Shown piece after piece: positions 13,951-64,000 of a stretch of DNA of 64,000 bases. The notes under the pieces are model-generated. The model searched no databases, was not told the DNA's origin, and saw only the letters and a program-made list of their open reading frames with translations. The stretch is from Sinohyriopsis cumingii. Lineage: Eukaryota; Mollusca; Bivalvia; Unionida; Unionidae. A program made the position numbers and the translations under genes. Every line of letters starts with the position of its first letter. Position 1 is the stretch's first letter. The stretch spans positions 157,278,789-157,342,788 of the forward strand of contig CM068824.1 in assembly GCA_028554795.2 (NCBI GenBank), read 5' to 3'.

Positions 13951-13981
13951 AATTGAACACTAAAAACAACGAATAATAATA

Positions 13982-23743: not shown

Positions 23744-23782
23744 ATAATTAAAACAAGTATTTAAATGAAAGAATATAGTATA

Positions 23783-24106: not shown

Positions 24107-24120
24107 TATTATTATACAAA

Positions 24121-24626
24121 ATGGACCAAGAATTTCAGCCGCATCCCCTGCTCGTCAATTACGAGGCATCTCGCGACGGCATTGTTAGAAACCGCAAACT
24201 GAAGAAGCCGGTTGGATGGAAAAACAATCACGGGTATTTAATGTTTGGTGTCGGAAAAAAAAATATCTCTGTCACAGAATCATCTATGAATGTTTCCACG
24301 GATTAATCAAAGATAGTCTCGTTATTGATCACATTGATGGATACCCTCAAAATAACAGACTGTGTAATTTGCAAGCTATCTCTCAGAGTGAAAACACCAA
24401 AAAAGGTAAAACAGGGAAGCACGCAAAAAAAGCAAAGAGCGTCAAATCGTTTGATACAACAACGCACGAGGAAAAAACATTTCACTCCATGAATGCGGCA
24501 GGAAAATATTTTGATATTTGTATGCCCGCAGTACGATTTGTTGCAGAACGAGTATATCAAACAGCGATCTCAAAAAAGACCGGACACAGAATTCGATTTT
24601 CGTATATAGATACGAAGTCACCGTGA
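24121..24626 (+). pseudogene. HNH homing-type endonuclease, frameshifted
   Basis: The N-terminal frame (24121-24306) and the HNH/NUMOD1 frame (24216-24626) overlap; the shift lies in an A run near 24257-24265. The HNH core (LVIDHID ... NRLCNLQAIS) is still readable. Intact in element A. Confidence 0.85.
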
Positions 24627-24734
24627 CAAGGTCACGTCTGTTCCGGAAGAAAACGAATTATTAAACATCTTCAGAATTGATACACGGGGGTTTCATTTTT
24701 TTTTTATTTAAAAACAAAATGTTTTATAGGAATA

Positions 24735-25115
24735 ATGAATATCGAAGACATCAATAATATATTAGCCGAGATTTCAAAATTAAAAAATCAAGGAATTGAA
24801 TTATCTGATGGTCTCGACAGCGAAAAAATATTATCCGATTATGAGATTATTAACGAACAATCGAAACGGGGGCGTTTTACCCTGGCCCGCGAGTACTTTT
24901 TTATAAAACGATTACAACATACGATTAATGAAAACTTGTACCACAATGACGCAAATGCATTCATTGGACTATTTACTGCCGTTGAAATAATACGAAAAAA
25001 ACTCGGACGTGTTTATGAACGACGCCGGGAGATTTCTAGTAAGATCAAAAACATTAGAAGGATTATAGACGAAAACTCCGGCGAGAAATTAGAAATTGCT
25101 TCGCAATTGCAATAA
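24735..25115 (+). CDS. Conserved helical protein, unknown, copy B
   Basis: 126 residues, collinear with the element A protein at 7110 up to about residue 115. The tail differs by an indel. It overlaps the start of the next gene by one base. Confidence 0.65.
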   Translation: MNIEDINNILAEISKLKNQGIELSDGLDSEKILSDYEIINEQSKRGRFTLAREYFFIKRLQHTINENLYHNDANAFIGLFTAVEIIRKKLGRVYERRREISSKIKNIRRIIDENSGEKLEIASQLQ

Positions 25116-26041
25116 TGGTAGGTGAATCACTCACTACTCGGCTAGCCAGAGAGCGGCTAGCAGCGCTTAGAAAGTTCATACCGTTACGAGACAGGGTCCG
25201 AGAGCAACTTCAAACGCGGCAGCAACTACAAACCGATTTTACTGTTGGAAGCGAACAACTCTTTGCCCCGGTAACTAAAGCGACCAAAGATGTTACGGCG
25301 GCAACTGTACCCGTCCTCGATGCCCTTGAAAAGATAGCGGCTCAGACCGAACAAACAAAAAGGTCTTTAGAAACACTAGCGGCTGCTACAACACGGAGGC
25401 CACCACCACTCGCTATAACCGAACCACAAGAACCTTATGTTACAATGGCCGACGAAGAAGAACTAGGTGCTACCGCAAGAGAACCAGAAGAAGAAATACC
25501 GGAAGAAACACCGGAAGAAAAAGAGAAAGGGGGGAATATACCCCGTAATGTGCTTAGAAAGTCCACAATAGATCAAATTAGAGACCTCAGCAGCAGGAGG
25601 GAAGAATTAATTGATTTTGCTGCCAACAATTTTGCTAAGAAAACACGAGATAAGGAGCATATCAATAGCGGCCACGAGAAAAATATAAAGTCGTTAAAGG
25701 ATTGGACAAGAATGGTGTATTTAGCGAGTAAATATAAAGATGTATTACTACGTGGTGATGGTCCCGATTACGACGCATTCCACAAGGAAGTTGAAAAAAG
25801 GATAAAACTAAAAAAAGGAAAAGGATACTCTGTTGGTAAAGAATCCTACGGCGTTACCTGTCCTAACAGTGTTCTCAGTGATATATCACGGCTAGAGGTA
25901 CTAATCGGAGGAAAACGAGCCGGAAATAACTCTCCGGAAATAATCAATGAGGCCGCTGATATTTGCAAGCGGTTATTTACGGGCGGTATCATGGACGTTA
26001 GTGCGTATCGAACGCTCATAGACGAACTCGTGGATGATTAA
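25115..26041 (+). CDS. AGNNS-motif virion-associated protein, copy B
   Basis: 308 residues. Same N-terminal basic helix, shorter acidic repeat, divergent middle and conserved RAGNNSPEIINEAADICKR C-terminus. The middle third is the most divergent stretch between the A and B copies of this gene. Confidence 0.7.
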   Translation: MVGESLTTRLARERLAALRKFIPLRDRVREQLQTRQQLQTDFTVGSEQLFAPVTKATKDVTAATVPVLDALEKIAAQTEQTKRSLETLAAATTRRPPPLAITEPQEPYVTMADEEELGATAREPEEEIPEETPEEKEKGGNIPRNVLRKSTIDQIRDLSSRREELIDFAANNFAKKTRDKEHINSGHEKNIKSLKDWTRMVYLASKYKDVLLRGDGPDYDAFHKEVEKRIKLKKGKGYSVGKESYGVTCPNSVLSDISRLEVLIGGKRAGNNSPEIINEAADICKRLFTGGIMDVSAYRTLIDELVDD

Positions 26042-26352
26042 AAAAATTATCGTTTTGTTAATTTTGACCGTTTTTGGTCGTTTTTGGTCGTTTTTGACCG
26101 TTTTTTGCCATTTTTTGACCGTTTTTTGAGGGCAAAAACCCCAGGAAATCATTTAGAGAAAATCGATGTTTTTGCTGAAAAATCGAGAAAAAACGACTAT
26201 AGGCAACAAAAAACGACCAAAAATGACTAGAAATCAGGAAAAAACCGGAAAAAAACCGGATTTTTATCGAGGGCAAAAACCCCAGGAAATTTTGATAAAA
26301 TTTATTCCGGTTTTCCACACGGCGGTGGGGAGGGGTGATGATCACAATCACT
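26042..26352. repeat. B-specific insertion with foldback-type repeats
   Basis: About 310 bp present only in element B, between two genes that are 28 bp apart in element A. It holds multiple GACCGTTTTTGGTCGTTTTT units on the left, their inverse (CAAAAAACGACCAAAAATGAC) around 26205-26226, and GGGCAAAAACCCCAGGAAAT twice (about 26129-26148 and 26271-26290). Very A/T-run rich. No credible protein. Confidence 0.7.
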
Positions 26353-26382
26353 AATTGAAAAACCGGTGTTTTTATAATAAAG

Positions 26383-26817
26383 ATGATCATACACTACAAC
26401 CACGATAAACCAGTACTCGTCTACGTGGTAAACTCGCGATTGCCTGTTTACCGCGCGTACTATGGAGATGGTCTCGGTAGCACCATTGCGGGGTTATTTA
26501 CAAGAATGGCTCCAAAAGTAGCGCCGTTAGCCAAACAATTAGGAATGAAGGCTATTGATGTTATTCGTGATAAGGGTATTAGTGCTATTGGAGATGTTGC
26601 CGGAAAGGCGCTTTCTGCAGCAAAGGACAAACTAATGTCGTTGGTGAGGAGAAAAAAGCAAAAACCACCGGTGATGCCATCAACGACAGTGATGCCTGCA
26701 AATGTCAGTAAAGTAATAAATAACGCCGTGGAAGAAAAACTAGAGTCGTTGGTAAACAGTAATCAAGATGACGCCGCAAACATAATAGCGGGGAGTGGTT
26801 TAAAACGACGACGATGA
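26383..26817 (+). CDS. pVI/pX-like minor core protein, copy B
   Basis: 144 residues, the same start and GDGLGSTIAGLF segment as in element A, with a shorter linker before the basic C-terminus. Preceded by AATTGAAAAACCGG and TTTTTATAATAAAG. Confidence 0.65.
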   Translation: MIIHYNHDKPVLVYVVNSRLPVYRAYYGDGLGSTIAGLFTRMAPKVAPLAKQLGMKAIDVIRDKGISAIGDVAGKALSAAKDKLMSLVRRKKQKPPVMPSTTVMPANVSKVINNAVEEKLESLVNSNQDDAANIIAGSGLKRRR

Positions 26818-26847
26818 TTTAGATGCATCAGCGTATTATTAAATAAA

Positions 26848-28261
26848 ATGTTTAAACGAACAGCTGACCCGGCGTTTGATATGGACGCACCAGTGCACAA
26901 GGATGATTCTGTCCGTAATTATCAATTTTATTCCTATCATGCAGTACAACCCGACATACGATCGCGAATTGAACTTCAAGTCCATGATACCAGTAAATAC
27001 TTTTTACCGTGTGAAGCGTTTATTGAAATCGAAGGAGAACTTGTAACAGAGGCCGATACTCCTGCTGTACCAGCACCGTATCCAGATGGTACCAAAGTTG
27101 GCTTAGTCAATAACGGCGTAATGGCGCTGTTTGAGAGCGCAAAATATCTCATTGACGGGCGAAAGATCGAGTCTATAGAACGCGATGTTGATGTTGCTAC
27201 AACAATAATCGGGCTAGCAAGATATTCCGACGATTACACAAGATCAGCGGGTCCATCTATGATGTTTGCAAAGGATACTAGAAACACTGCCGGAAACTCG
27301 CAATTTGTGGTAAGACGACCAAAAAAAAATGCTGGTGACGCTGATGCTGATGTTGAGAATATGATTATAAACAGCGATCCTAATTTCAACATCGGAGCCG
27401 TAACACGCATATCAATGTTAACAGGACCGCGTAGATCTTTCTCATGCGCGATTCCACTGCATCATATATTTGGATTTTGTAGGAACGTGCGAAAAGTTAT
27501 CTACGGAGCAAAGCATACCGTGGTACTTGTGCGAAAAGGTGATGATAGAAATGCAATTTGGAGAATTCCAGCGGATACTGCAAATCCAAATAATGACCCT
27601 GGTAAAGTCGTTTTAACTAAAATGTCATTGTGGATGCCGGTGTTGACTCCATCCATTACCACAGAGGCACGATTGCTATCCTTCATGGAGCAGGGAGGAA
27701 AATCATTACTAAGTTGGCTAACAACAACAACAGATACTAAGCAATCAAATATCAATGGTATATTCACATGGAACCTGGCATCACAACAAGGTATTTCGGC
27801 TCCGCGTCATATATTTGTTGCGTTGCAGGATATGACGAGAGTTGATAATCAATTATCCAGCCATATGATATTTGATCGATTAGGCGTTACTGACGGTCTC
27901 GCTGAGAATAAACGGCCAGCAGGAACCATCTGAGGATATACAACTTAATTACGGTCAAAACCATATCGCACGTGTGTATCATCGATTGCTGTCGTACATG
28001 GGTCGTGATCAAAACGTCGACACTGGTTTGCAAATATCACAATATGATTTCAGAGAACTATATCCGATCTATTACTTTTCGCTGGAACATCTTGATTTAA
28101 CAAGACAATCCGTCGTTGATATACACTTCCGAGCTAATGTAACTCGCGGCACTATTGCTAATTATAGAGCTATTGCTGTCATTCTCAGCGATAAATCAAT
28201 GCTGTTGGAAGGCGTTGGTGGACGAATGAGAATCGTTGATGCGCCAGTGGAAAACATGTAA
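26848..28261 (+). pseudogene. Double jelly-roll major capsid protein, frameshifted
   Basis: Open from 26848 to 27933 and again from about 27900 to 28261 in another frame. One extra base near 27890-27900 shifts the frame in the second barrel. Family features as at 9021 (IPLHHIFGFCRNVRKV; ILSDKSMLLEGVGG). Surface-loop regions (residues ~75-85 and ~160-185) differ strongly from element A, more than the rest of the protein. Confidence 0.88.
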
Positions 28262-28289
28262 TTGAAAGCACAAACACGTTTACAATAAA

Positions 28290-28682
28290 ATGTCGTATAG
28301 TGTCGTCAGTGTAGAGTTGACTGATGGTCAAGTCAAGAAATTACGATCAAAGTCGGCTAAACAATGCGGGACCACAATAACGCTGAAGCCGTCACAGATG
28401 GCAGGTGGTAATCATAAGATATCGTTGACGGCGCGTCAAATAAAACATTTCAATAATGCGATGAAGAACAGAAAGGGTGTTCAGGTAGATTTCTCGGCCG
28501 CAGCGATCAAAGACATGGAAAAGACCGGTGGGATATTTCCGCTGTTAGCCGCGATTCCAGCGTTGATTGCCGCGGCGGCCCCAGCAGTGGCTAAGGCGGC
28601 TGCGTTAGGGGCTGTTGGTACCGCGGCGGGAATGGCACTGAAAAAGGCAACCGGGAAAGGCTATAAAAAAAAAGACCCGTAG
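28290..28682 (+). CDS. Core protein, copy B
   Basis: 130 residues ending in GKGYKKKDP. Corresponds to the first 130 residues of the fused frame in element A: basic, with a GGIFPLLAAIPALIAAAAP hydrophobic stretch. A DNA-condensing or pX-like role is inferred from composition and position. Confidence 0.65.
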   Translation: MSYSVVSVELTDGQVKKLRSKSAKQCGTTITLKPSQMAGGNHKISLTARQIKHFNNAMKNRKGVQVDFSAAAIKDMEKTGGIFPLLAAIPALIAAAAPAVAKAAALGAVGTAAGMALKKATGKGYKKKDP

Positions 28683-28719
28683 CCGGAAAGGGTCTAAGAC
28701 TACCGGGAACCCCGTATTC

Positions 28720-29202
28720 ATGGTACTCGGGAAAGGGTCTAAGACTACCGGGAACCGTTTATTGACCCGGGGGTCAATGACTCCTATGTCTAATTTTGAT
28801 TTAATAGACGCCGCAGACGCGCTAGCGATAAAAAACTTTAGAGGTGTTTTTATGAGGGATCAATTACCGGCGGCACCAAGGAATATTGAAACCGGCATAA
28901 TTAACCTCGATGGGTCCTCCGGAGCGGGAACTCATTGGGTTGCATACGCGATTGATCCGCGTGCGATCGTCTATTTTGATTCATACGGGTTAGCCCCGCC
29001 GAACGAGTTTATGCGGTATATCCGGACGTGTTCAGCCCGGGTTTTTTATTCCACGCTGCCAACACAGCAGTTAAGCGACCCGCCGATATGCGGCCGTGAA
29101 GTATTGAACGTACTCGCGGCCATTTCATCATCGCGGAAACCACCTCATGTGGTTGTAAACGAATACACTAGTGGGGTCGTAGAGGCCCGGCGGGTTAATT
29201 AG
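28720..29202 (+). CDS. Adenain-like cysteine protease, copy B
   Basis: 160 residues, or about 141 from the ATG at 28777. Contains GTHWVAY, YFDSYG, QQLSDPPICGREVL: His, Asp, Gln and the Cys-Gly nucleophile of C5 proteases, all intact. Adenain-type enzymes process capsid and core precursors. It is a separate frame from the core protein here, unlike the single open frame in element A. Confidence 0.82.
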   Translation: MVLGKGSKTTGNRLLTRGSMTPMSNFDLIDAADALAIKNFRGVFMRDQLPAAPRNIETGIINLDGSSGAGTHWVAYAIDPRAIVYFDSYGLAPPNEFMRYIRTCSARVFYSTLPTQQLSDPPICGREVLNVLAAISSSRKPPHVVVNEYTSGVVEARRVN

Positions 29203-29229
29203 AAACGCCGTTTTTTTTTACAATAACGA

Positions 29230-30583
29230 TGATTGATATCTGGGGACGACCGGTTTCGGCGCTGAAAAAGCCCACGGAAACGCCCGCCACCGATGACATA
29301 AAAAACTAATCGAGGATGAAATCGCTGATACGTTGAATTTAACCAGTGTTGACCCAGGTGAAATAGTTGTATTTCAAGACCGCCAGGGTAAATTGAAATC
29401 CAGTAATGTGTCGCTGGATGACGTTTTAACACGACGGCGTGATGCCGCCGAGGACACTATCGCGTTGTATACCAGCGACGGACGACTCAAACCGGGTGAA
29501 CATCTATCGACGATAACATTAATCCGAGACGGTTTTACAAGGTTGGATAAATCGGTGACCGAACTTGACGCGCAGGTGAAAAAATCTATCACCGATATAC
29601 AGCTCACTACCGCTAGTTTTTTTGGGACCCCGACGGTAACCGAACCGAATCTTGCAACAATAAAAAATACTATTTCGGAGTTTACAACGCTGTCGGGTCA
29701 ATTTTACACGTTGCGAAAAAATTTTAACAGGATCGATAACAACTTTGATAAATTCTTTGGTAAAAAAAATACCAAGCTGGATGAGATTACAACAACTATA
29801 AATGATATCACTGCGTATGGACAGGAAATAAAAACAATCAAAACTGAGGTTGAAGCGAACAAAGAGAATATAGACGCGCATGCAGGGAAAATAGCAACGC
29901 TCAAAACCGAGGTTGAAGCGAACAAAGAGAATATAGCCGCGCATGTAAGGGAAATAGTAAAGCTCAGAACCGAGGTTGATGCGAACAAAGAGAATATAGC
30001 CGCGCATACAGGGGAAATAGGAACGCTCAGTGCCGTGGTTAAAGAGAACATGGGGCATATAGACACGCAGATAAGGAAAATAAATACACTCGCTGTTAAT
30101 ACTGCAGTGAGCAAACAAAATATCGACGGGCACACACAGGAAATAAATACACTCATTACTAAGGTTACAGCGAACAAAAAAAGTATAGACGGGCATACAC
30201 AGGAAATAGGAACAATCAGAACTGATGTTGAAGCGATTAAAGACGGACTACCGAGAGTAGCAGAGCAATTCGAAAAAATAAAAATCCCTCATGAGAACAT
30301 CATCAACATAGTATACACAATTCGGCATGGATCATTCGATTGGACTCCTACACAGAATACAGTAGATATCACCGCAACTGTTAAGGGCATTTATCGATTG
30401 ACATTGATTTCGGCGATGCAGTTTAGTATATCATCGTCGAGTTCATCCGGGTTTAACAATACAGTGTCAACAATCATTGACAAGAATACAATTGAACGGT
30501 TTGTAATTAAGGCCGTTGATAGCAGTCTATTTAGGACAAACATCACATGGTATGTGGAATTTGTAGCGAGTCTAATTAATTAA
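29230..30583 (+). CDS. Coiled-coil fibre / attachment protein, seven shaft units
   Basis: The main frame is open from about 29310 to 30583 (416 residues from 29333). The natural ATG at 29230 is out of frame because one A is missing in the A run near 29300. It has an N-terminal domain (DPGEIVVFQDRQGKLKSSN), a helical neck, seven 21-residue coiled-coil units and a C-terminal head of ~110 residues (HGSFDWTP...YVEFVASLIN). Trimeric-fibre architecture and a role in host attachment are inferred from design and position, not from a family match. Shaft length is less than half of that in element A. Confidence 0.8.
29826..30250 (+). repeat. 63-bp tandem repeats encoding fibre shaft (about 7 units)
   Basis: Same period and heptad code as the element A array, but more diverged between units. 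Confidence 0.9.
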
Positions 30584-30608
30584 AAACATTAGCTCTTTTA
30601 AAATAAAA

Positions 30609-31132
30609 ATGACCACCAGGGTAATTGAATCAGAGGTATCACCGACGTCACATCAATATCGATTCGATACCGCAAAAGAATTCTCCGCGAATTTGAAAAC
30701 GCTTTCCGAACAATACCGCGCAAAAATAAAAAAATAACCACCATCGACGCGGTCGTGTACTCGGTATCGGGTATAGTAGCCGGTACCGGTGTTATTTTAT
30801 CCACGGTAACCACGATAGCCCCGATCGCTGTTCCAATCGCTATCTCCGCGATGACAACGATTGCTGGAGTCGCCAACGCAATCACTAAAAAGATATCATC
30901 GTGTTTTCAGAAAAAACTCGACGAGTATACAGTAAAACATCAAATAGTATCCGACGCGTACTCGAAATTATCCGGGTTGATCTCGTTATCGATTGATAAT
31001 TTGTTCATATCCGATGTTGAATTCTCCACGATGGTCCAGTTGTATAGCTCCGCGATGTCAAAAATCGAGGATTTTCAACTGGAAGCCGGAACCACCTGGT
31101 TGTTGAAATTAGACACTAAAAACAACGAATAA
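30609..31132 (+). pseudogene. Two-helix membrane protein, deleted copy
   Basis: The ATG at 30609 begins like the gene at 13378, but about 14 bases are missing near 30735 and shift the frame. The hydrophobic hairpin and helical tail are open from 30755. The C-terminus is also shorter and differs from element A. Confidence 0.75.
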
Positions 31133-31137
31133 TAATA

Positions 31138-32448
31138 ATGTCGCTGAACCCCGAAGGGTCTCAATTACTTCAGCGGATCGCGGAGAATACCACTCCGGTA
31201 CAAACAAATATGATATCGATAACGTCAACGAAACCCGAATTCAGTGTGAACTTCCCATCGCCGGTTCCAGTGAAGGAAATAGCGCTGACAAAATTGCGAG
31301 TATATCACAGTTGGCCTAATATCCGAGCGGATGCATTTAACGGACAACAACCTAATAACTCGCTGGTTTTTGCATGGACAAATAAGCCCGATGGGACCCC
31401 AGACTGGAATGAGGTTACAATACCAACTGGGTCATACCAAATAGAACAAATCAATGGAGAATTTCAGCGCAGGATAAAATCGATCACAGGAAAGGAATCA
31501 AAAATCGCTATTACGGTTCATGAACCGACGTTATCGTCGACGATTGAAATAAGCACACCGGGGTATATGGTTGATATCTATAACAGTTCAATAAGAACCA
31601 TACTAGGATGGCCTAAGAATCCACCCGCGGACTTGCACACGAATGAGAAATCGTATCATGAAATTACCCCCCGGTATCTAGATAATTTATCTATTATAAA
31701 AAGCACGTTATCACCCAGTTGGTTTTTATTTCAACACAGGAATATCATGCAGTGGTATTTTCAGCATAAGAAAACTACTGAATCGGTCGCCATATTAACA
31801 TTTATTTTAAGTGATATCACTGATATGTTTGCCGAGATTGATTATTATTACCAATTACAACTAGAACAGCTACGGGAAACAAAAGAACGAAAACACGTTG
31901 AGGTGTTAAATCAACTTATATCAGACATGGAATATATCAATGAACGAGTCGTTAAAATGATATCCGATAACAGCGATGGTAGTAAACAAAAATTCCTAAC
32001 CGAGTATAATATCACAGAAGCCGATTTACCCGATTTCAAGTTTCCAGGATACAACGCGCCAGAACTAAGAAAGTCTCTTAATGATTTTCTCGGTCCATCA
32101 ACTTATATCCTCAAACACGATAACGGAGATGGTGGTAGGCATATTGCCCCGTACAACGTAAATATCGCATCAGTGATAGCGATCAATCTAGTGTGTGATG
32201 TTATCGAAGGGAGTTACCAGGTGGATACCAAGCAATCAAATCAAGCTCAACAGGGATATATCCTTTATTCATTTTCACCAACAGCCCCTCCGGGATTTTT
32301 GATCATTGAGAGTCCGATTAATCCAGTCTATATGCGATGCCATAATCGGCTTTTAACGAGAATTAATTTTAGAATTACCGATCAGTCAAATAACCTAATT
32401 GACCTACAAGAGGAGGAGTTGGTGATCACTCTGTTTGTAAGATCATAG
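31138..32448 (+). CDS. Penton-like minor capsid protein, copy B
   Basis: 436 residues, intact and collinear with 13982-15301. N-terminal jelly-roll motifs, central helical insertion (LEQLRETKERKHVEVLNQL) and conserved C-terminus. The region of residues ~165-225 is markedly more diverged than the flanks. The stop codon overlaps the right TIR. Confidence 0.87.
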   Translation: MSLNPEGSQLLQRIAENTTPVQTNMISITSTKPEFSVNFPSPVPVKEIALTKLRVYHSWPNIRADAFNGQQPNNSLVFAWTNKPDGTPDWNEVTIPTGSYQIEQINGEFQRRIKSITGKESKIAITVHEPTLSSTIEISTPGYMVDIYNSSIRTILGWPKNPPADLHTNEKSYHEITPRYLDNLSIIKSTLSPSWFLFQHRNIMQWYFQHKKTTESVAILTFILSDITDMFAEIDYYYQLQLEQLRETKERKHVEVLNQLISDMEYINERVVKMISDNSDGSKQKFLTEYNITEADLPDFKFPGYNAPELRKSLNDFLGPSTYILKHDNGDGGRHIAPYNVNIASVIAINLVCDVIEGSYQVDTKQSNQAQQGYILYSFSPTAPPGFLIIESPINPVYMRCHNRLLTRINFRITDQSNNLIDLQEEELVITLFVRS

Positions 32449-49410: not shown

Positions 49411-49592
49411 AAATTTTAGATATGTGTACATTGATTTTCTCTAGGAACGACCCCAGCCTCTTTCTCCTCTCTACACAGTCCTCATAATGGTTGGTAATGG
49501 GTTAGTAGTTTTTATGCATCTTATATTAGATCAATATTACCCGACTTTGTGAATACATTCGGGCGGTATTCTGGTGGAAACTAGAAGAAACG

Positions 49593-49935
49593 TGTGTAGC
49601 ACCATAGTACTCCACAAACAAGTTCTATCATACATACAAATCTATTACAAATACTAAAATATGGGATGCACCAATAAAATATCAGGGGTGACTACAAGTA
49701 AAGCAACCATATCGCAAATCTTTCAATACTGATCTACCTCTTCATATCATGAATTAGATTAGTTCGTTCCATTTATATCGTTTCTGTAAATATATACAGT
49801 CAGACATCTTGTACATTCTGTAAAGTATTACGTTTTTTGTGTGTCTTGTGTTCTTGTTTCGTTTTTGTGATCGCCTTTGCCGCTACGATCTCTTGAGCAA
49901 TAAATCGACAGAAACGGCACATTCTTGGGCTGGAT
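49593..49935 (+). repeat. Interspersed repeat copy 1 (possible solo LTR)
   Basis: About 340 bp starting TGTGTAGCACCATAGTACTC and containing an AATAAA near 49899. The same sequence occurs inverted at about 53605-53953. TG start and poly(A) signal suggest a solo LTR, but the 3' boundary is unclear. Confidence 0.7.
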
Positions 49936-51267
49936 TAACTCGTTTGTCAGTTTTTGCATCAGCACATATAACCTTATTGCACATGAACTTTATATTTTAT
50001 ATTCAGATCATCGGTCTAGGCAACTCGTCCTGCAAAAGAAGTCTGCGCTAGTTACCTGTCATCACTAAGGCTTTGTAACGTCTATATGACCGCATGTTAA
50101 ATATTTGTGCTTCTCTGAAAGGAATTATCTCTTCGACGTTAAATTCTCTATATCAATTACTATTTCACAATTTCAGAAATTCTTTCAACGTATTGAGAAT
50201 GGACATTTTTTCATTCTTATACGTACGTGAAATTTGTTTTGCAATGTGGTGAAGACATGAGGGGTGGGTCTTTTTTACATTCAGTTGTATGCATGATTGT
50301 GATTTTCAATGCCGAACAACTATGGCAAATAACCTGTACCATATCACTGTTGTCTTTTATTTTTTCTAATGCAATCATCCCGATTAACCCCGTCCGGTAA
50401 ATGATTTAGAGCGCGTGAGGTGGCGTACCATTCATAAACCAGAAGCAAACTTTAGTTAGCGATCAATGCTATTGGCTTGCGAAAATTCGTAAGGGAACAA
50501 CGAAGTTCTCCTTAGGCACACATATTAGTTTATACTGCATATTGATAACATACGCAATTAGCTTTGTGGTTTAGACTACAATATTTGCAATACGCCATCA
50601 TTACTTTCGCCGTAACGTTTCTCTCTAGAATGTTCAAATAAATAATTGTACGTTATCCAACTGTGTTAAGTTTTAAAATCCCACATCAGGTGTCAGCAGT
50701 TTGTGTCACAATTATACCCTTGATACTGATTAACCTTCAATCAAGTGATGTTTACCACAATATTCTCTTTGCCCTCAAATTAGATCAATGCGTATACACA
50801 CTGAGAAAATGTCCATGGCTTTAGTCATTATTCGAACACTCGGTCGGGAAGATAAAGAGATAATCATTAACTGCAGCACATTATATCCCGAAATATGTAG
50901 TGGATGCTGATGGTCTCTCGCAATCTGGACAATTTGATCTGATCGCTCTGCTTCTATGAACAAATTATATAGACTAGTTTCAAGTGAAAAGTGACATTGT
51001 TCTCCTTTTTATGTTTCATTTATAAAATATGATCAATAAAAGCATTTTTCCTCAAAAAGTGGTGGATATATTTTTTTGTGATGATCATGTCGTAAACGTT
51101 TACGATACTGACACAGACAGGTTTTAATACATTCAAGTCAATCCAAACACATTGACATTGTCTACCTGTTTTTCTTAACTCTTTTGTGTTCCAAACTATT
51201 GTATCGTTAACTTATAGGAACATAGCAAATTGACATTTATACATGGAGCAGTAAACTCTATTTGCAG

Positions 51268-51480
51268 TGATCCAGTGTTCTAACTATTCTATTGGAAAAG
51301 GGAGCATTACAGTTGTACAATATGGGGATTCAAACCAAACCTTTACGTACGGAACAAAACTCAACGTCACATGTCATGAAGGATACAGGATGTCAGATGA
51401 CGGAGTGGTTACTAATGAGACTGAAAGTGATTTAGAGTGCAATGCCACCGGAAATTGGTCAAGAAACCTTACATGTTCAA
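51268..51480 (+). CDS. Host gene exon 4: sushi (CCP) domain
   Basis: A single phase-1 exon between TATTTGCAG and A|GTAATC. Encodes a ~60-residue complement-control module with four cysteines (QCSNYS ... VTCHEGYRM ... LECNATGNWS ... LTCSS) and the typical G.W before the last Cys. Sushi modules mediate protein or glycan contacts in complement and adhesion proteins; the exon continues the secreted lectin gene. Confidence 0.8.
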
Positions 51481-51876
51481 GTAATCTTTATACTTATTTA
51501 AAATTCAAAGATTCAAGTAAACATTCTAAACGTTTATTGCACTATTCACTAATACTCAGCAAGTGAAAATAAAATATAGTAATTTTCTATTTTTCATGCC
51601 AAAAATCGGTATTGATGATGATGATAAAAATGATGTTGATGGTAATGATGATGATCTCAAATATGTTGATGAATTTTTAAACTTTTGATATATAATATCA
51701 GACGTCGAATCATGCCTCGAAGTATTCCATATTTGTTTATGAAAAATAAGAATTATATCTGATGTATACATATTTCTAAAACCGTTGTTGTGTGTAGAGG
51801 ACATATCTAAGTCATTTAGACTAATTATCCCTACAGAGAAAATGGTGACTTAATTAACCTTCTTTGCCAATAACAG

Positions 51877-52074
51877 TTGTAGTTTGCGGGTGGCCTCCAA
51901 ATATCCCGAACAACAGTAAACAGACTCTAACACCCGGAATCGCTGGTGACACCACATACAACGCCACACTGACTGTGGAATGTAATGAAGGTTACAGCTA
52001 CAGCTTACAGGAAACAGAATCTATTCGGTGTTCTGACGATGGAGTTTGGGCTGGACAACTTGGAAACTGTAATG
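51877..52074 (+). CDS. Host gene exon 5: second sushi (CCP) domain
   Basis: Between CCAATAACAG and G|GTAATT, phase 1. Four cysteines in CCP spacing: VCGWPPNIPNN, TVECNEGYSY, IRCSDDGVW, GNCNG. Same gene as exons 1-4. No later exon is seen before element C begins, so the gene either continues beyond the window or was interrupted. Confidence 0.8.
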
Positions 52075-53604
52075 GTAATTATGCATTTGCAAGTGGATAT
52101 ATTTGACTGGTATATGTTTTATGTATGACTGATTTTTGCATAATACGCAATGATGTAAATTAAACTAGTGAGTAAAATAAGACCCAAAAAAGGCACAACA
52201 GATGGGACGTTTTCTTGATGTTCATTGTATAGGCGGTTGCTCACGCAATGGTAAATTAGGGAATCATTTACAAGAGGGTCAACGATAGGTCAGATCAAGG
52301 TTACACTGACTTTTTCAAATCGTGTTTAGAGTCTTATCTTTAGCCACTTCTTAAACAAGTATCGCTGTTTATTTCTATACAATGCACTAGTAAACGCATT
52401 ATTATTTGCTTTAAATATGTCCTACCATGCAAACTGATAGTATTGGCGGGATTGTACATCAAAATAACGGTAATATGAAAGAATCATTATACAAGACGAA
52501 ATGCATTAGGTTTGTACTCTACACCGCTACAGAAATTAATTGTGCTATTTGACGACCCAGAATTTAACATTTGGCAATGAGGAGTGGTTAAATATGAAAC
52601 AGAACATTGAAGCAAAAATTGGCGTCAATTTGCCGGCACTAACTATCCCGTGTCAATTATCGGATCTAAACCTAAGATATAACTTGATCAGTTTTTATTA
52701 TAGTAACAACAAGTTAACCATAACGCTGGAGAAACTCGCTATCATGATGATGGATGAAGGGTGGTTTGGGTGGATGAGGTAGGAGGATCCTTCAAAGTAA
52801 TGGGATCGGTTTGTACAAAGAACTATACCGCAGCCTTAAAATTTTCAATAGGGATTTTCCTTGTTTGTTGCGGTATCCAGTTGAAGCTGTTATATATCAG
52901 ATCAACAGCTGGCAATGTGTTTCTCATCTTGTTTCGACTCTCTGATCTTACACTAAGTAACAAAAAGAAGCAAGTTTTCTTAAAATTCTCTAAAGTATAA
53001 AATAAAACTTTAAGAGGAGCTTACAGTATGATGAATTAAATCCAAGAGTCCTTAAACATTCTAAGTAAGTCCAAAAGAATCGAGTTTTCCTAAAGAATTG
53101 CAGGTCCTGTAAGGTGTTGAACTCCTTTGAATAAATTTAGCCCAAGAATAATATTTTAGTCCATATTCAAAGAGCACTTTTAATTCCAAAGAATAATCCG
53201 AACAAATGATTTCCTCTCAAATTATATCTAAACACGACATTAAACATTTCTGCAAACTGATTTTAAAAGTTGAAGAGAGGAAATAAGAATGAACTGATTG
53301 GTCAACTCTCTCCCCTTATATGCACACTGTGGCAGCATTACGACTCATAAATCGCAATACTTTCTACGTGACAATGGTCAAAATACCCAAAGTCGCTACA
53401 GAGCCCACCTGACTGTACCAGCTAATCGGAACTTAACCCAAACTTGTCAACAGGTTTATTATTACAATCAGTGTTAAACTCTATTAGTATATATTAATAG
53501 CTTATATGCAATTTACAGAGACGCGCCAAAAGTGAAAACACAATATATACATAACAATTTTAAAGAACCAAGCCATCACTAATTTGAAGACAAATTCAAC
53601 GAAC
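52075..53604 (+). other. Non-coding DNA between exon 5 and element C
   Basis: AT-rich. A short frame at 52540-52782 shows no domain. No gene supported. Confidence 0.5.
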
Positions 53605-53953
53605 CGATAGCCTATAGCCCAAAAATATGCCATTTCTGTCGATTTATTGCTCAGGAGATCGTAGCGGCAAAGGCGATCACACAAACGAAACAAAAACACA
53701 AGACACATAAAAAACGTAATACTTTACAGAATGTACAAGATGTCTGACTATATATTTACAGAAACGATATAAATGGAACGAACTAATCTAATTCATGATA
53801 TGAAGAGGTAGATCAGTATTGAAAGATTTGCGATATGGTTGTTTTACTTGTAGGCACCCCTGATATTTTATTGGTGCATCCCATATTTTAGTCTTCTTAA
53901 TTGATTTGTATAGTATGATAGGACTTGTTGGTGGAGTACTATGGTGCGACACA
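53605..53953 (-). repeat. Interspersed repeat copy 2, inverted
   Basis: Inverted copy of 49593-49935 with scattered substitutions. Its TGTGTCGCACC end lies 4 bp from the left terminus of element C, so element C inserted at or beside the edge of this repeat. Confidence 0.75.
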
Positions 53954-53957
53954 TGTT

Positions 53958-54380
53958 AGTAATATAAGGGTGAGATTAGCGACAATGGGAATTAGCATTA
54001 AAAACACCCCCTGGGTAAGATTAGCGACAATGGAAATTTAACATTAACCACCCTGGGTAAGATTAGCGACAATGGAAATTTAACATGGGCAAAAAACCCT
54101 GGGTAAGATTAGCGACAATGGAATTTAACATTGGAGAAAGGAAAAAAAAGGAAATATTGATTTTAGCGACAAAGGCATTCGAACAATGGAAAACACATAT
54201 CGATTCTAGGGACAAAGGCAATTGAACATGGGGAATAGAGTTTGGGTCTGTCTAGGGACAAGGGGAATTGAACATGGGAATAGAGTTTGGGTTTGTCTAG
54301 GGACAAAGGGGAATTGAACATGTTAGAAAAAAAAACTACTTTAGGGACAAGGGGAATTGAACATGGGATTTTTTTTAAAA
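53958..54380. repeat. Element C left TIR with two tandem-repeat arrays
   Basis: Array 1 (about 53968-54137): four units of 42-46 bp, each with GGGTAAGATTAGCGACAATGG and A/T-rich spacers. Array 2 (about 54206-54370): three to four units of ~50 bp with CTAGGGACAAGGGGAATTGAACATGG. The two arrays share an AGNGACAANGG...AA.T..AACAT core. Tandem repeats inside TIRs are usual for Polintons. The matching right TIR is outside the window. Confidence 0.75.
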
Positions 54381-54414: not shown

Positions 54415-54457
54415 CATTCTCTTTTTTCGAGAAATATGGGTGGCCCTGAAAAGGGCC
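54415..54457 (-). terminator. Histone-type mRNA 3' end signal after 178-residue gene
   Basis: Read on the minus strand: GGCCCTTTTCAGGGCC (6-bp stem, TTTC loop) at 54457-54442, immediately ACCCA at 54441-54437, then a purine-rich GAAAAAAGAGAATG about 8 nt further. This equals the stem-loop / ACCCA / histone-downstream-element layout of replication-dependent histone genes. It lies 24 nt after the stop codon, within the usual 25-50 nt range. Confidence 0.8.
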
Positions 54458-54481
54458 TTTGGGTTTTTTCTTCTTCTTCTT

Positions 54482-55018
54482 CTAACTCCTTAACTTCTTC
54501 CACCATCCTCTTATTTCTTCCATCATTCCTTTCTTCTTCTTCTTTTCTGTTTCCGGCATCCAGTCCGGGTGACCCATGGCTCGGAACTTCTCTTGGATTT
54601 TCATCCAGTTTGAGTTTAGTTTCTCTAGTTCTTCCTTTTTCTTTCTATTTTCTTCTTCTTTTCTTTCCTTTGACCACTTTTCTTTGATCTTCTTGACCTC
54701 TTCGGTCAGCACATTTCTCATTACTTCTTCGGCTTTCTTAAGCTTGTCTAAGCCCCACTTCACAAAAGACCAACCTGTCCATTCTAGAATGTCTTCTAAA
54801 TAACACCTTACACTCGTCACATAAACTATGGCTTCTTTCAACTTACCCACTTTAACATACGGTGGGTTAATTAAACCTCTGATTCTCTTCTCCTCATCCT
54901 CTATCATTTCTTTTACAATATTGATGGCTAAGTGGAGGCTGGTTACTTGTCTTGAGACGAAGTCTTTTGTCACTGCATGCCTCCATACCCAAACCCATAA
55001 TCTACTATTCACACCCAC
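54482..55018 (-). CDS. Accessory coiled-coil protein 1 (element C)
   Basis: 178 codons open; the first codon is GTG at 55018 and the first ATG is ~36 codons in, so the start is uncertain. A core shared with the next two genes is readable (KLKEAIVYVTSVRCYL, then TEEVKKIKEKWSKERKEEE), followed by a long charged coiled coil. Function unknown. Followed by a histone-type stem-loop. An AATATAAAC box lies upstream at about 55085-55095. Confidence 0.6.
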   Translation of the reverse strand: MGVNSRLWVWVWRHAVTKDFVSRQVTSLHLAINIVKEMIEDEEKRIRGLINPPYVKVGKLKEAIVYVTSVRCYLEDILEWTGWSFVKWGLDKLKKAEEVMRNVLTEEVKKIKEKWSKERKEEENRKKKEELEKLNSNWMKIQEKFRAMGHPDWMPETEKKKKKGMMEEIRGWWKKLRS

Positions 55019-55029
55019 GTACTTGAGTG

Positions 55030-55170
55030 CTTACAAACACAAACACACAAACACATACCCTCACACTAAAAAAAGAGTGAGTGTTTATATTCACACTACT
55101 CTACCTACACACATTGGCAAATTGATGGTTATTTCTTTTCTAGAGTATTGGGTAGCCCTTAAAAGGGCTG
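55030..55170. repeat. ~140-bp intergenic duplication, copy 1
   Basis: Near-identical to 55850-55995: a CA-rich stretch, GAGTGTTTATATTCACAC, CTACCTACACACA.TGGCAAATTG, then the histone-like 3' signal. It contains both the 3' end of one accessory gene and the upstream region of the next, showing that gene plus signals were duplicated as a unit. Confidence 0.85.
55128..55169 (-). terminator. Histone-type mRNA 3' end signal after 107-residue gene
   Basis: Minus strand: AGCCCTTTTAAGGGCT (6-bp stem, TTTA loop) at 55169-55154, ACCCA at 55153-55149, then CTCTAGAAAAGAAATAACC as a candidate U7-pairing element. 29 nt after the stop codon at 55199. Confidence 0.78.
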
Positions 55171-55198
55171 TTTGTTTTTGAACTCCAGATGCACCTAT

Positions 55199-55507
55199 CT
55201 AATGATGGCACCTTCCTGGCCTGGCGCCACACACGCATCTTCTTCCCCAGTCTCCTTTCACCTTTCTTCTTGGGAGCGCAGAGGGAGGATGATTCGCTTC
55301 AGCACCCCAATCCTCTGTCTCTGGAATATTGTACGACATCCTCTCTCCTATTTTCTTTTCCTCCTCTTCCCTCTGTCTTCTCTCCTCCTCTTCCTTCTTT
55401 ATTCTTTCCTCTTCTACTATAGCCTCCGCGGCCAGTTCATTTAACAGGCGCCTGACATATTCCAGATGTATCTGGAGTTCAAGAAGTTTGCTTATTCTGC
55501 TATTCAT
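55199..55507 (-). CDS. Accessory coiled-coil protein 2 (element C)
   Basis: 102 residues from the ATG at 55507. Short N-terminal helix with the shared pattern (ISKLLELQIHLEYVRRLL), then a Glu/Arg-rich coiled coil and a tail ending in CVCGARPGRCHH. Weakly similar to its neighbours, probably a paralogue. Upstream lie a TATAAA (about 55558-55563), the GCGCGGACGTGAAGGAAAAC box at 55571 and a second partial box at 55643. Followed by a histone-type stem-loop. Confidence 0.6.
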   Translation of the reverse strand: MNSRISKLLELQIHLEYVRRLLNELAAEAIVEEERIKKEEEERRQREEEEKKIGERMSYNIPETEDWGAEANHPPSALPRRKVKGDWGRRCVCGARPGRCHH

Positions 55508-55570
55508 TCTGGTGTTGATCAATCAACAAGGGTAGCTAGACTGCCCAGCGAGTTTCAATTTATAGTGAAA

Positions 55571-55595
55571 GCGCGGACGTGAAGGAAAACATCCC
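55571..55595 (-). promoter_or_regulatory. Shared upstream box, copy 1
   Basis: GCGCGGACGTGAAGGAAAAC plus ATCCC, identical over 25 bp to 56466-56490. Located ~65 nt upstream of the ATG of accessory gene 2, with a TATAAA between box and gene. A partial copy (CGCGCGGACCTAAAAGAAAC) lies at 55642-55661. Confidence 0.65.
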
Positions 55596-55599
55596 CCTA

Positions 55600-55978
55600 A
55601 AAAACATAAAATTGATCTTACCAAGATCATGACCAAAACAACGCGCGGACCTAAAAGAAACACTCACTTTTTTATACTACCCATTCCTATTCTAAAAAAA
55701 TTTTTTCATTAATCACTTCAATAGACTATCCACATACGCAAAGCAATCCAATCAAACCCCCCAAATCTACTCTCCCCACACCTCAAACACCAAAAAAACA
55801 TCATCTTAATCTACTATCCACACCAACCTACTTCATCCGTTACAAACACAAACACACAAACATAAACACACAAACACATACACTCTTACTGTTAAAAAAG
55901 AGTTAGTGTTTATATTCACACTACTCTACCTACACACACTGGCAAATTGATGGTTATTTCTTTTCTAGAGTATTGGGT
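55600..55978. other. Intergenic region with second 140-bp duplication copy
   Basis: No gene. 55600-55840 is AT/CA-rich and otherwise featureless; 55850-55995 is the second copy of the duplicated 3'-signal region described at 55030. Confidence 0.6.
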
Positions 55979-55994
55979 AGCCCTGAAAAGGGCT
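55953..55994 (-). terminator. Histone-type mRNA 3' end signal after polyQ gene
   Basis: Minus strand: AGCCCTTTTCAGGGCT (6-bp stem, TTTC loop) at 55994-55979, ACCCA at 55978-55974, then CTCTAGAAAAGAAATAACC. 37 nt after the stop codon at 56032. Confidence 0.8.
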
Positions 55995-56031: not shown

Positions 56032-56400
56032 TTAGTTTCTAAGAATGCGATGTCCTCTGAGGATAGACTTTCTGGCAATAGGTCTGCTTCTTCGGAAAGA
56101 GAAGAAGAACTCTTTGGTGTCGATACGACAATCGACAAAGCCTCTGTCAGGTTCAGGTTGCTGTTGCTGCTGCTGTTGCTGTTGTTGTTGCTGTTGCTGC
56201 TGCTGTCTCTGAAGTCTGTACTTCTCTGTCCATTCTTCTTTCTCCCTGTTCACTTCTTCTCTGAAGAGCTCTTCTATCAGGTCTTCAGTAACTTTTAACA
56301 TTCTCACATTCTCTATCTCTTCTGGCTTCGGTATCAGACTGTGTCTGACCCTATGCAAATTCACGTAGGCTTCGTTTAGCTTAGCTAGTTTGGAGCACAT
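56032..56400 (-). CDS. Accessory protein 3 with polyglutamine tract (element C)
   Basis: 122 residues from the ATG at 56400. Shared N-terminal pattern (CSKLAKLNEAYVNLHRVR, then LIEELFREEVNREKEEW), a run of about 19 Gln encoded by mixed CAG/CAA (56152-56212), and a basic C-terminus. Likely paralogue of the two downstream genes. Preceded by the 25-bp shared box at 56466 and followed by a histone-type stem-loop. Confidence 0.62.
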   Translation of the reverse strand: MCSKLAKLNEAYVNLHRVRHSLIPKPEEIENVRMLKVTEDLIEELFREEVNREKEEWTEKYRLQRQQQQQQQQQQQQQQQQPEPDRGFVDCRIDTKEFFFSFRRSRPIARKSILRGHRILRN

Positions 56401-56465
56401 CTTCGTAGGAGGATGAGTCGACAATGGATGGTTAGACTGGAAACAACCTGGTTCTTAAAGTCAAA

Positions 56466-56490
56466 GCGCGGACGTGAAGGAAAACATCCC
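56466..56490 (-). promoter_or_regulatory. Shared upstream box, copy 2
   Basis: Same 25 bp as 55571-55595, 66 nt upstream of the ATG of accessory gene 3. Position and identity suggest a promoter element. Confidence 0.65.
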
Positions 56491-56838
56491 TCTACGGTTT
56501 TCGAGCCGCAACGTTCAATGAGTGTAATGAGAGGGATAGTAAGAAGTCAAAGAGCATAAATCAACATTGTTATAGCCAAACAAACCACAAATGCATTTTT
56601 TTCAAAACACAACATTTTTTATTCAAAATCACTTAACATTAACCAACAACTCTAACATTTTTTAACAATAATCCAACAATATAACATCAAACATTTTTTT
56701 CAATTTACACTCTACTTTAAACAGGGTTGGCAAAGTTGTGAATGCAATTGTGATTTCCACTGTTGCAAGTCATTGAGTCATGGATGGACACTACGTTTCC
56801 TAGCTGAAGACAACAAAATAAGCATACTTGTCACAAAA
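56491..56838. other. Intergenic region (element C)
   Basis: AT-rich, with CAACATTTTTT-type short repeats around 56600-56700. No gene and no stem-loop of the histone type. Confidence 0.55.
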
Positions 56839-57326: not shown

Positions 57327-58568
57327 CTAATAATCTAGAATGACTTCTCTCAAACTGTTGATTTCTATCGTATTATCGAATTCTGCATACAGGATGACGT
57401 TCACTGTCTTGTCCAGTGGTTCTGCAAACTGAAGTTCCACACGAATCTGGCCGGATTTTATAGGGTGAAAATGTCCCTCGTCGCTGCCTTGGTCTGGAGT
57501 GAAATCGAAAGCCCACAAAGCATAGCCTCCTGCGTAATCTTCGTACGTAATGCCGTGACTGGTGTTGGTTCCTAACTGGCCGGTGGCTTCGTACAAGGAC
57601 AAGTACGATCTCAAGTAATTCATCTTCGTGTCACTAAAGTCAGGTTCGAAAGGTCGGGTACACAAGGTCTTGCCATCGCGACTGACTTCGATTTTCTTCA
57701 CCTTAAAGTGTTGAAAGTTGAAAGGATTTTTTTTGAAGGCTCCGTTGAAGGCTTCATTCTCGACCATACCAAGGATTAAACGCTTGGGTAACTGTCCTTG
57801 GAACAGATGATCTTCGATCATGGAATGATGGCTAGCGGGAATGGTGAACGTTTTCACTTCCACCCTTCGTATGGGATACATGGCGGTCGTTCTGCTCAAC
57901 GTTTGACTGATGTCGTTTCCCACTTTGGGTAACGCTTCCACGCGTCGTACGTAGAGTTTGGCCTCCTCGATTTTGCTTTTAGGATTGCCAGCATCAGTAT
58001 CAGCCAACAAATGGTAAGCGGCACTGCTACGATTCAGTCTCAAGCGAACATTGACCCCGTTCAGCAAATATTTCTCTTGCAACCACATGTCCAAATGCAA
58101 ACGATCCATCAGTTCTATACTCTTTCCATCTAGGATTTTGCTTCGTCTTTCCACAAAGTCGTCATTGTCTTTTTTTAATGTGTCAAACTCCTTCGCTTCG
58201 TCAGGTTCCCATAGCACACAAGCATTGAGATGAGTATTCTTGGCGTCTATTCCGTACGTCAAGAGATTTTCCAGGTAGGCACGGTAAGGGTAAGTATCCA
58301 TGCTGCTGCTGACCAGTTTGTTGTTCAAGTACAAGTCCACTGAGCTGAACAAGGTATGCATGAAATTGTTGACGGGAGCTATATTCTCAGTGTCTTCTAC
58401 TGCACCATTATCCTTATCTAGAACTTTGACTTTCAAGTACAAGTAACTGCTATTCAGATCGATGTAATCTTCGGATTGTCCCTTGATTTCAAACTCGATG
58501 GGAGCGGAATCTGCCAATGAGGAGACGGGATGAAATTCCACCCATTGGGATTCTTGCATGGTCATCAT
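57327..58568 (-). CDS. Double jelly-roll major capsid protein (Polinton type)
   Basis: 413 residues, intact. Recognisable as the widespread Polinton capsid (often listed as F54H12.2-like): an N-terminal IEFEIKGQSEDYIDLNSSYLYL, the middle VNNFMHTLFSSVDLYLN and YPYRAYLENLLTYG, and a C-terminal YEDYAGGYALWAFDFTPD. Forms the pseudo-hexameric capsomers. It lies downstream of the minor capsid gene, the conserved Polinton order. Confidence 0.93.
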   Translation of the reverse strand: MMTMQESQWVEFHPVSSLADSAPIEFEIKGQSEDYIDLNSSYLYLKVKVLDKDNGAVEDTENIAPVNNFMHTLFSSVDLYLNNKLVSSSMDTYPYRAYLENLLTYGIDAKNTHLNACVLWEPDEAKEFDTLKKDNDDFVERRSKILDGKSIELMDRLHLDMWLQEKYLLNGVNVRLRLNRSSAAYHLLADTDAGNPKSKIEEAKLYVRRVEALPKVGNDISQTLSRTTAMYPIRRVEVKTFTIPASHHSMIEDHLFQGQLPKRLILGMVENEAFNGAFKKNPFNFQHFKVKKIEVSRDGKTLCTRPFEPDFSDTKMNYLRSYLSLYEATGQLGTNTSHGITYEDYAGGYALWAFDFTPDQGSDEGHFHPIKSGQIRVELQFAEPLDKTVNVILYAEFDNTIEINSLREVILDY

Positions 58569-60444: not shown

Positions 60445-61551
60445 TCACTTCTTTTTATAGTCGATGACTTGAGAAGCGTCGATCCAAGAATCAAAACTGG
60501 GTGGATATCCTTTCCAATGTACTTTGACTTCTTTGACACGTCGTTTGCCCACTTTACGGGTTCTGCGTTCGAGAATGCTTTCGATGTCGTACACGTCTTC
60601 TTTTTTGGTGACACGTTGTAACTTGGGGAAATAAAACGTTCCTTTGAGCACTTCTCCGTTCATGTCTTCCAATTTATAGACGGCAGGATGACGGCCATGC
60701 ACTCGTCCAGTGACACGAAACAATTTGGTGGTCCAGTTAGGTAAGTAACCTTTGTCGAAAGTGCGTTTGGTTTTGCCAATGCGCACCCAATATCCTACGG
60801 CCAACTCTCCACTTTTCTTGGGGACAGCCCTCGTCGGGGACGTACCAAACAGGCGCTCAAACACCAACACTTCGTTCTCGGGAGTCACGTCTTGCGGGGC
60901 ACGTCCTATGCTTCGATGGTAAGATTGGTTGTACGCTTGCACCAGGTGCGGTAAGATGTCGATGTACTTCAGAGTGTGGTGATGCGTAAAATATTTCCAC
61001 ATGCGTTCTTTCAAAGTGCGTTGAAAACGTTCCACGATGCTGGCTTTGGTTTCTGGATTCTCGGTGGTAAAAAAATGAATGTCACGTTTCTTTAATTCTT
61101 TTTGGAAAGCTTGGTTCAGAAATTCGGTGCCTTTGTCCGTTTGCCATCGAAGAGGGTGACGGCCACTTTGTTTGAACACTCGTTGCAGGGCTCGCACTAA
61201 CTCGCTGCTCGATTTGGAAGTCAAGGGCACGACCCAGGCAAATTTGGAAAAGACGTCGATGACACAAAACAAATATTTGTAGCCACGATTGTAGCTGGCC
61301 AAATGAGAGACATCGGCTAAATCGGCTTGCCATTGATGATCGATGCCTTCCACTCGGGTGCGACTTCTGGCAAACTTGCGTCGAATGGGTTTGTGTAAAG
61401 TGTAGGTAGCTTGTTCTTGTAACCATCGTTGCACTTGAAGTAAACGGAGACTTTTCAGTCGCGTTTTGGCAGCACGATACAATTTTTGAACTCCTGCGTA
61501 ACCTGCAGGATGTAAGGGATCGTAGTAAATGCTGGCTAAGACTTTTTCCAT
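60445..61551 (-). CDS. rve integrase with C-terminal chromodomain (Polinton)
   Basis: 368 residues from the ATG at 61551. Catalytic residues D77 (WQADLADVS), D139 (WQTDKGTEF) and E174 (KASIVERFQRT); D-to-E distance 35. The SH3-like part (VGYWVRIGKTKRTFDKGYLPNW) precedes a ~45-residue chromodomain (VYDIESILERR ... VHWKGYPPSFDSWI). Chromodomain integrases tether insertion to marked chromatin in Polintons and Gypsy-type elements. Intact, and clearly distinct from the integrases of elements A and B, which lack the chromodomain. Confidence 0.95.
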   Translation of the reverse strand: MEKVLASIYYDPLHPAGYAGVQKLYRAAKTRLKSLRLLQVQRWLQEQATYTLHKPIRRKFARSRTRVEGIDHQWQADLADVSHLASYNRGYKYLFCVIDVFSKFAWVVPLTSKSSSELVRALQRVFKQSGRHPLRWQTDKGTEFLNQAFQKELKKRDIHFFTTENPETKASIVERFQRTLKERMWKYFTHHHTLKYIDILPHLVQAYNQSYHRSIGRAPQDVTPENEVLVFERLFGTSPTRAVPKKSGELAVGYWVRIGKTKRTFDKGYLPNWTTKLFRVTGRVHGRHPAVYKLEDMNGEVLKGTFYFPKLQRVTKKEDVYDIESILERRTRKVGKRRVKEVKVHWKGYPPSFDSWIDASQVIDYKKK

Positions 61552-63698: not shown

Positions 63699-64000
63699 TT
63701 AAGTCGAGGACGGAGACGTGTACAGGACAGGCCCTCCGTCTTGGCACCAGTGGTGAAACAAGTGGGTACGAAATCGCAAATCCTCGGGGGTCGTAGGTTT
63801 CAAATCGATGAGTAAATAGGCGTGTGGAGTTTGAGTGTCATCGTCGTACGCCTGAGTCAGCCAAGGCGTTCCTAACTGTTTGGCTAAGATTTGCACTTGC
63901 GATTTATCTCGAGGGCTTTTAAACAAGACCACGTAATGCGCATTGAGACTGATGGTGCGATGGGCTTTACTTTGTTGAAACAAATTTTGGGTGATGTAAA
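63699..64000 (-). CDS. Packaging ATPase, C-terminal part (runs off window)
   Basis: The open frame reaches the window edge. It contains ITQNLFQQSKAHRTISLN, then VVLFKSPRDKSQVQILAKQL and HAYLLIDLKP, the diagnostic C-terminal block of the Polinton FtsK/HerA-type ATPase after Walker B. The P-loop is outside the window. Ends at 63699; the next gene starts 67 bp further on. Confidence 0.92.
   Translation of the reverse strand, partial: YITQNLFQQSKAHRTISLNAHYVVLFKSPRDKSQVQILAKQLGTPWLTQAYDDDTQTPHAYLLIDLKPTTPEDLRFRTHLFHHWCQDGGPVLYTSPSST

Follow-up and report, generated by a model that had tools for sequence, protein, structure and literature searches.

The window analysed here (64,000 nt of the genome of the bivalve Sinohyriopsis cumingii, contig CM068824.1, positions 157278789-157342788, called C1 below) ends within a Polinton-like transposon whose genes are read from the minus strand. 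At the far edge lies an ORF (63699..63998) of which the C-terminal 99 codons remain, the rest being cut off by the window end, and which, by resemblance, is the putative packaging ATPase gene. The element also holds an integrase gene (60445..61551), whose rve core and chromodomain match Pfam PF00665 and PF00385 above the cut-off, and the gene for a major capsid protein of 413 aa (57327..58568). Three small accessory genes, referred to as A, B and C, lie between the capsid gene and the left terminus of the element (53958..54014, terminal base 53958), an end point common to 13 kin copies and the one terminus that is defined. Further ORFs are found upstream of the accessory genes, on the same strand as the capsid and integrase genes.

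The element had been called a Polinton from the letters alone, and this identity is borne out by a retroviral-type integrase with a chromodomain in the window, a capsid profile related to double-jelly-roll proteins and, in kin copies, a PolB that neighbours either the capsid gene or the hairpins. The capsid protein itself has no direct Pfam match, and its profile found nothing relevant among solved structures; compared with a protein that carries the Pfam domain DJR-like_dom, the profile gives an hhalign E of 2.8e-6 and a probability of 88%. The capsid has 982 homologues, and the named animal hosts among the 120 listed are mostly bivalves (Mercenaria, Ostrea, Saccostrea and Crassostrea), with one snail. 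PolB is common in the 2.9-Gb assembly, with open frames of up to about 1360 aa, and the window is cut before any PolB. One of the 100 listed capsid copies pairs with one of the 75 listed PolB places, the two lying on one strand at a distance of 8.5 kb. On C1, one PolB is situated between stem-loops of its own strand: one stem-loop precedes it by 3.5 kb, and two more follow it at 9.8 and 10.7 kb.

The stretch 49589-53957 of the window, bordered by inverted repeats that are some 350 nt long and 91-96% complementary, abuts the terminus at 53958 exactly, and subterminal direct repeats with units of 35-47 nt (53990-54330) are found between gene C and the element end. On C9 (84666356-84731039), four capsid copies are spaced by 21153, 21143 and 21149 bp, resembling a tandem array. 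A second Polinton-like family occupies two stretches of the window (1-15301 and 20291-32448) with an rve integrase, a double-jelly-roll capsid and a 1099-aa ORF, which has a superfamily 1 helicase domain at its end and is broken in the second stretch. In the far-side piece of the window copy (L113), neither a promoter element nor a stem-loop nor an ORF of 90 aa was found.

Gene A (56032..56400) encodes 122 aa with a Q-rich stretch and no Pfam match, gene B (55199..55507) encodes 102 aa and has the C-terminal end RCVCGARPGRCHH, and gene C (type I; 54482..54907) retains 141 aa, and neither the N-terminal part nor the promoter elements found in kin copies are present. The ORFs of the accessory genes are uninterrupted and have no introns, and Pfam found no histone domain, and hence no encoded histone fold, in the A and C proteins of the window or in the B, C and type IV proteins of kin copies. 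The accessory proteins are under purifying selection: with saturated pairs dropped, dN/dS is 0.099 for A (17 intact ORFs, 136 of 136 pairs used), 0.180 for B (13 ORFs, 58 of 78 pairs), 0.137 for C type I (9 intact kin ORFs, 21 of 36 pairs) and 0.211 for C type II (4 ORFs, 6 of 6 pairs), and the highest synonymous distances among the remaining pairs are about 1.0 for B and 0.67 for C type I. Homologues on short contigs (three of the C protein, eight of the B protein) are 50–57% identical where the query is nearly fully covered, which implies that the accessory genes predate the copies in this genome. The predicted fold of the gene C product is a helical bundle, with no match at E <= 0.001 among PDB and viral models; the model of the gene B product is poor (pTM 0.28).

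Genes A and B share a 24-nt upstream element, GATGTTTTCCTTCACGTCCGCGCT, which begins 88 nt 5' of the ATG in gene A (56465..56488) and 86 nt 5' of it in gene B (55570..55593), where it is followed by the TATA-like CTATAAAT. Gene B has a second upstream element (55640..55660), spotted by eye, that resembles one of the host H4 gene (TTTCTTTTAGGTCCGCGCGTT). Neither the 24-nt element nor the shortened state of gene C features in the first-pass annotation.

Behind each of the three genes there is a hairpin with a 6-bp stem and a TTTC or TTTA loop, followed at once by ACCCA. The hairpin of gene A is AGCCCTTTTCAGGGCT (55979..55994; ACCCA at 55974-55978), that of gene B is AGCCCTTTTAAGGGCT (55154..55169; ACCCA at 55149-55153) and that of gene C is GGCCCTTTTCAGGGCC (54442..54457; ACCCA at 54437-54441), and they lie 37, 29 and 24 nt past the respective stop codons. 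A purine-rich element stands downstream: CTAGAAAAGA, 10 nt past the stem, in genes A (55959..55968) and B (55134..55143), with its GAAAAGA core beginning 8 nt past ACCCA, and CTCGAAAAAAGA at that place in gene C (54420..54431). The first-pass annotation had described this layout (hairpin coordinates, stems, loops, ACCCA, distances from the stops and purine-rich elements), and a check of the sequence reproduced it throughout. It had also named the gene C hairpin a canonical histone stem-loop, with which the Rfam model Histone3 (RF00032) agrees: the gene C hairpin (54462-54418) scores 39.2 bits (E 5.4e-8) and is the only one of the three to clear the gathering score of 34, while those of gene B (55174-55129; 31.6 bits, E 7.9e-6) and gene A (55999-55954; 31.0 bits, E 1.4e-5) fit the model below that score.

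The histone genes of the host offer a direct comparison. They are arranged in a repeat of 8.27 kb (locus L063) that holds H3, H4, H2B, H2A and H1, with the stem-loops GGCCCTTTTTAGGGCC in H3 and H4, GGCCCTTTTAAGGGCC in H2A and GGTCCTTTTCAGGACC in H1; the stem-loop of H2B is, letter for letter, that of gene C. The downstream element of genes A and B recurs with the same letters in four of the five host genes (H3, H4, H2B and H1), 10 or 11 nt past the stem, while H2A has CCCGAAAAGG instead; the downstream element of gene C occupies the position seen in the host genes. The letters right after the stem differ, being ACA or others in the host genes and ACCC in the element. The likeness extends to the promoter, given that close relatives of the 24-nt element are found upstream of host H2B (1 mismatch, 107 nt from the ATG) and H1 (2 mismatches, 105 nt). 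H4 has a remoter form (8 mismatches) and has AGGTCCGCGCG in common with the upstream region of gene B, in H2A the element is inverted (5 mismatches), and no such element was found upstream of H3 in the repeat. Since both the stem-loop with its downstream element and the promoter element match host histone genes, signals of histone type stand at both ends of Polinton genes that are not histone genes.

A further resemblance concerns the flank of genes A and B past the downstream element, where CATCAATTTGCCA (window 55935-55956) is like CATCAATTTTGCCA of host H2A (L063, after 3674). A likeness of this degree was reached in 4 of 2000 shuffles (15 gene comparisons, two segments each), and a capture of the flank from H2A is only modestly supported.

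At least 101 capsid copies with 91–100% identity are present in the genome, and the 5.5 kb downstream of the best 20 of the 100 copies outside the window were taken as the kin set. With one unpaired position tolerated, 18 of the 20 kin copies have hairpins on the capsid strand: 12 have three, 5 have two and 1 has one, and the other 2 have none. After intact ORFs, the stem is paired at all six positions in 15 of 17 A genes, 12 of 13 B genes, 6 of 9 C type I genes and 2 of 4 C type II genes, and the downstream element is present in 17/17, 13/13, 7/9 and 2/4, respectively. The placement of the stem-loops just after the stops, as first proposed, exceeds what shuffled flanks give: within 160 nt of the stop, the best match has 0–2 mismatches in every intact A (17/17) and B (13/13) ORF, against a best of 5 mismatches in 850 shuffles for A and 4 in 650 shuffles for B. 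All 20 kin copies have at least one promoter element; as a rule, A and B are each preceded by one and C by two.

Mean pairwise identity amounts to 0.985 (A), 0.949 (B) and 0.985 (C) in the stem-loop and to 0.51–0.85 in the preceding 12 nt, in a comparison whose rows were picked by stem pattern, which favours the stem. In gene A the stretch from +60 to +100 (identity 0.972) is conserved as much as the stem, and in gene C the downstream element (0.818) is conserved no better than its surroundings. Among 13 hand-picked stems of the element and the host (12 of them distinct), 98.6% of the cells pair and two pairs change on both sides.

The notion that host histone ends were captured once and then spread passively, their transcripts being polyadenylated or not made at all, has to be weighed here. 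The kin copies are mutually related and some of them are damaged, and genes A and B are similar to host H2A in their flank beyond the downstream element (the 4 of 2000 shuffles mentioned above), all of which such a fossil could accommodate. It is nonetheless an unlikely account, because the signals stand on several distinct gene endings and because the stems vary by paired changes even though synonymous distances reach about 1.0 (B) and 0.67 (C type I).

The signals are spread over the whole genome. The pattern of stem-loop, ACCC and GAAAAG has 33,240 matches and that of the promoter element 24,957 exact matches, and the reversed control of each pattern has 0. Among the 71 promoter elements listed on C1, 49 have a stem-loop on the same strand within 900 nt downstream and none has one on the opposite strand (expected, 0.5); a same-strand stem-loop within 900 nt upstream accompanies 36 of the 71, as expected of tandem genes. 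Of the 75 scored RF00032 matches in the genome, 48 were inspected (the best 8 and 40 more), and none of these 48 showed a histone gene. The 40 fall into four gene endings (type III, 19; type IV, 9; type I, 6; type II, 6), classes that were drawn up after inspecting the same 40 matches. Types III and IV are arranged as a divergent pair, and in locus L007 the pair lies beside a terminus, next to the type III gene, that is similar to that of the element, suggesting that histone-type accessory genes are present at both ends of the element. In loci L003 and L037, a zinc-knuckle-like ORF (MEET.QMERFVRALRG...) adjoins the divergent pair of types III and IV.

The sheer number of these stem-loop matches (33,240, when 105 of the 150 scored histone frames listed are H3-like) could be taken to mean that both the hairpins and the promoter elements serve chiefly as decoys, titrating SLBP, U7 snRNP or histone promoter factors, with coding a secondary matter. 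The purifying selection on the proteins and the fixed distances of the hairpins past the stops speak against such a role, which we consider quite improbable. That the hairpins are chance or general ones (a terminator, or a hairpin for DNA replication or packaging) merely resembling histone ends, as could be read from their being GC-rich palindromes and from weak matches of another family on the opposite strand (E 0.24 and 0.55), is hardly credible in view of the Histone3 model scores, the match of the downstream and promoter elements to host histone genes and the genome-wide controls of 0; a chance palindrome or terminator was dismissed on account of the model scores, the host match and the paired changes.

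The distribution of poly(A) signals is also relevant. An AATAAA (56618..56623 in the window) separates the capsid unit from the promoter of gene A; all of the 21 copies, window included, have one here, no more than 300 nt upstream of their first promoter element. In contrast, an AATAAA or ATTAAA occurs within 150 nt downstream of only 9 of 45 stem-loops, with none after the other 36. By this difference, polyadenylation seems likely for the capsid unit and, in most cases, not for the accessory genes, so that the element would use two 3'-end systems, the capsid unit ending in an ordinary AATAAA.

As for the factors that would act on these signals, searches of the genome for U7 (Rfam) and for SLBP domains gave no match, and the positive controls were equally silent. 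A loose U7 pattern is found in 9 places, against 5 for the reversed control; three of the nine have TCTTTTCAAGTTTCTCTAG in common, followed by a conserved small hairpin, and a dedicated pattern finds these three places only (control, 0). They lie at C9:37977680-37977706, C17:63002801-63002827 and C17:63138303-63138329 and are candidate U7 snRNA genes, identified by pattern; complementarity of their 5' end to the histone downstream element extends to 9 of 10 positions for CTAGAAAAGA and to 10 of 10 for CTTGAAAAGA, which occurs in several copies. The hairpin of the candidate is short, and no PSE common to the candidate U7 and U2 genes is visible.

Taken together, the fit to the Rfam model, the host histone genes and the kin copies support the reading of the hairpins as histone-type 3' ends. 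Very probably, then, this bivalve Polinton family carries accessory genes that are built and run like replication-dependent histone genes. We also lean towards a more specific proposal, namely that the element took over the control of histone genes, at the promoter as well as at the 3' end, and applies it to genes of another kind; this would yield S-phase mRNAs that lack poly(A) and escape poly(A)+ RNA-seq, and with about 33,000 ends it might burden the supply of SLBP and U7. According to the mechanism that we infer, the factors that serve host histone genes would turn on the accessory promoters around S phase. In the transcripts, SLBP would bind the stem-loop and U7 snRNP would pair with the downstream element; cleavage a few nucleotides past the stem would then produce mRNAs without poly(A), lasting only while cellular DNA is being copied. 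The accessory products would thus be made while host DNA synthesis is on, and may help the element to exploit replicating cells. Processing by SLBP and U7, and poly(A)-less transcripts bound to S phase, had both been put forward in the first-pass annotation.

To our knowledge, hardly any genes other than replication-dependent histone genes have histone-type 3' ends. If the proposal is true, the histone expression programme, promoter element and 3' end alike, can be borrowed as a unit by a mobile element, which could time its accessory functions to the DNA replication of its host, and data from poly(A)-selected RNA miss the accessory genes. The element family also represents thousands of natural variants of the molluscan histone promoter element and stem-loop.

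The histone-type signal is not general to Polintons. The first-pass annotation had called for a Histone3 scan of related elements. By pattern, the hairpins are present in 18 of 20 kin copies; further afield, the Histone3 scan found no match up to E 1 in positions 1-54000 of the window, where the two stretches of the other Polinton-like family lie, and none in four distant Polinton-like contigs (26–41% capsid identity), one of which (L049) spans only 1.3 kb past the capsid gene. On another contig, a weak match to the type-P1 twister ribozyme follows a Polinton-like capsid gene (L050, 11644-11708; 28.9 bits, gathering score 67.2) and is probably due to chance. In the viral contig set, no relatives turned up by integrase, by capsid alignment or by gene B alignment, and no contig with the promoter pattern; its sole exact match to the canonical stem-loop (L064), which might have pointed to a virus that shares the signal, falls within a long ORF and was attributed to chance. 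No earlier description of histone-type 3' ends in Polintons was known to the first-pass annotation, and none was found in the literature searched, a body in which subscription journals are mostly outside coverage; nor did these searches find a report of the histone stem-loop in transposable elements generally or of SLBP with Polintons. The accessible part of a survey of bivalve transposons mentions Mavericks and does not mention histones (PMC10294476).

Three known systems can be compared with this one. The first is the adomavirus ‘Histoid’, reported as a histone-like protein encoded by viruses, with one clam-associated example in which it occurs together with adintovirus-like virion proteins (PMC11071296). 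Both cases link a group of DNA elements or viruses to histones; in the Histoid viruses it is the protein that is histone-like, whereas in the Polinton family it is only the gene ends. With Polinton/Maverick elements and adintoviruses, the element shares the chromodomain integrase, the double-jelly-roll-type capsid and, in kin copies, PolB, and it differs from them in having accessory genes at its ends with a histone-type promoter and 3' end. Finally, the accessory genes resemble the replication-dependent histone genes of metazoans in the stem-loop, the downstream element and its spacing, the promoter element and the intronless ORFs, the downstream letters of A and B being those of the host; unlike those genes, they sit in a mobile element and encode proteins without a histone domain.
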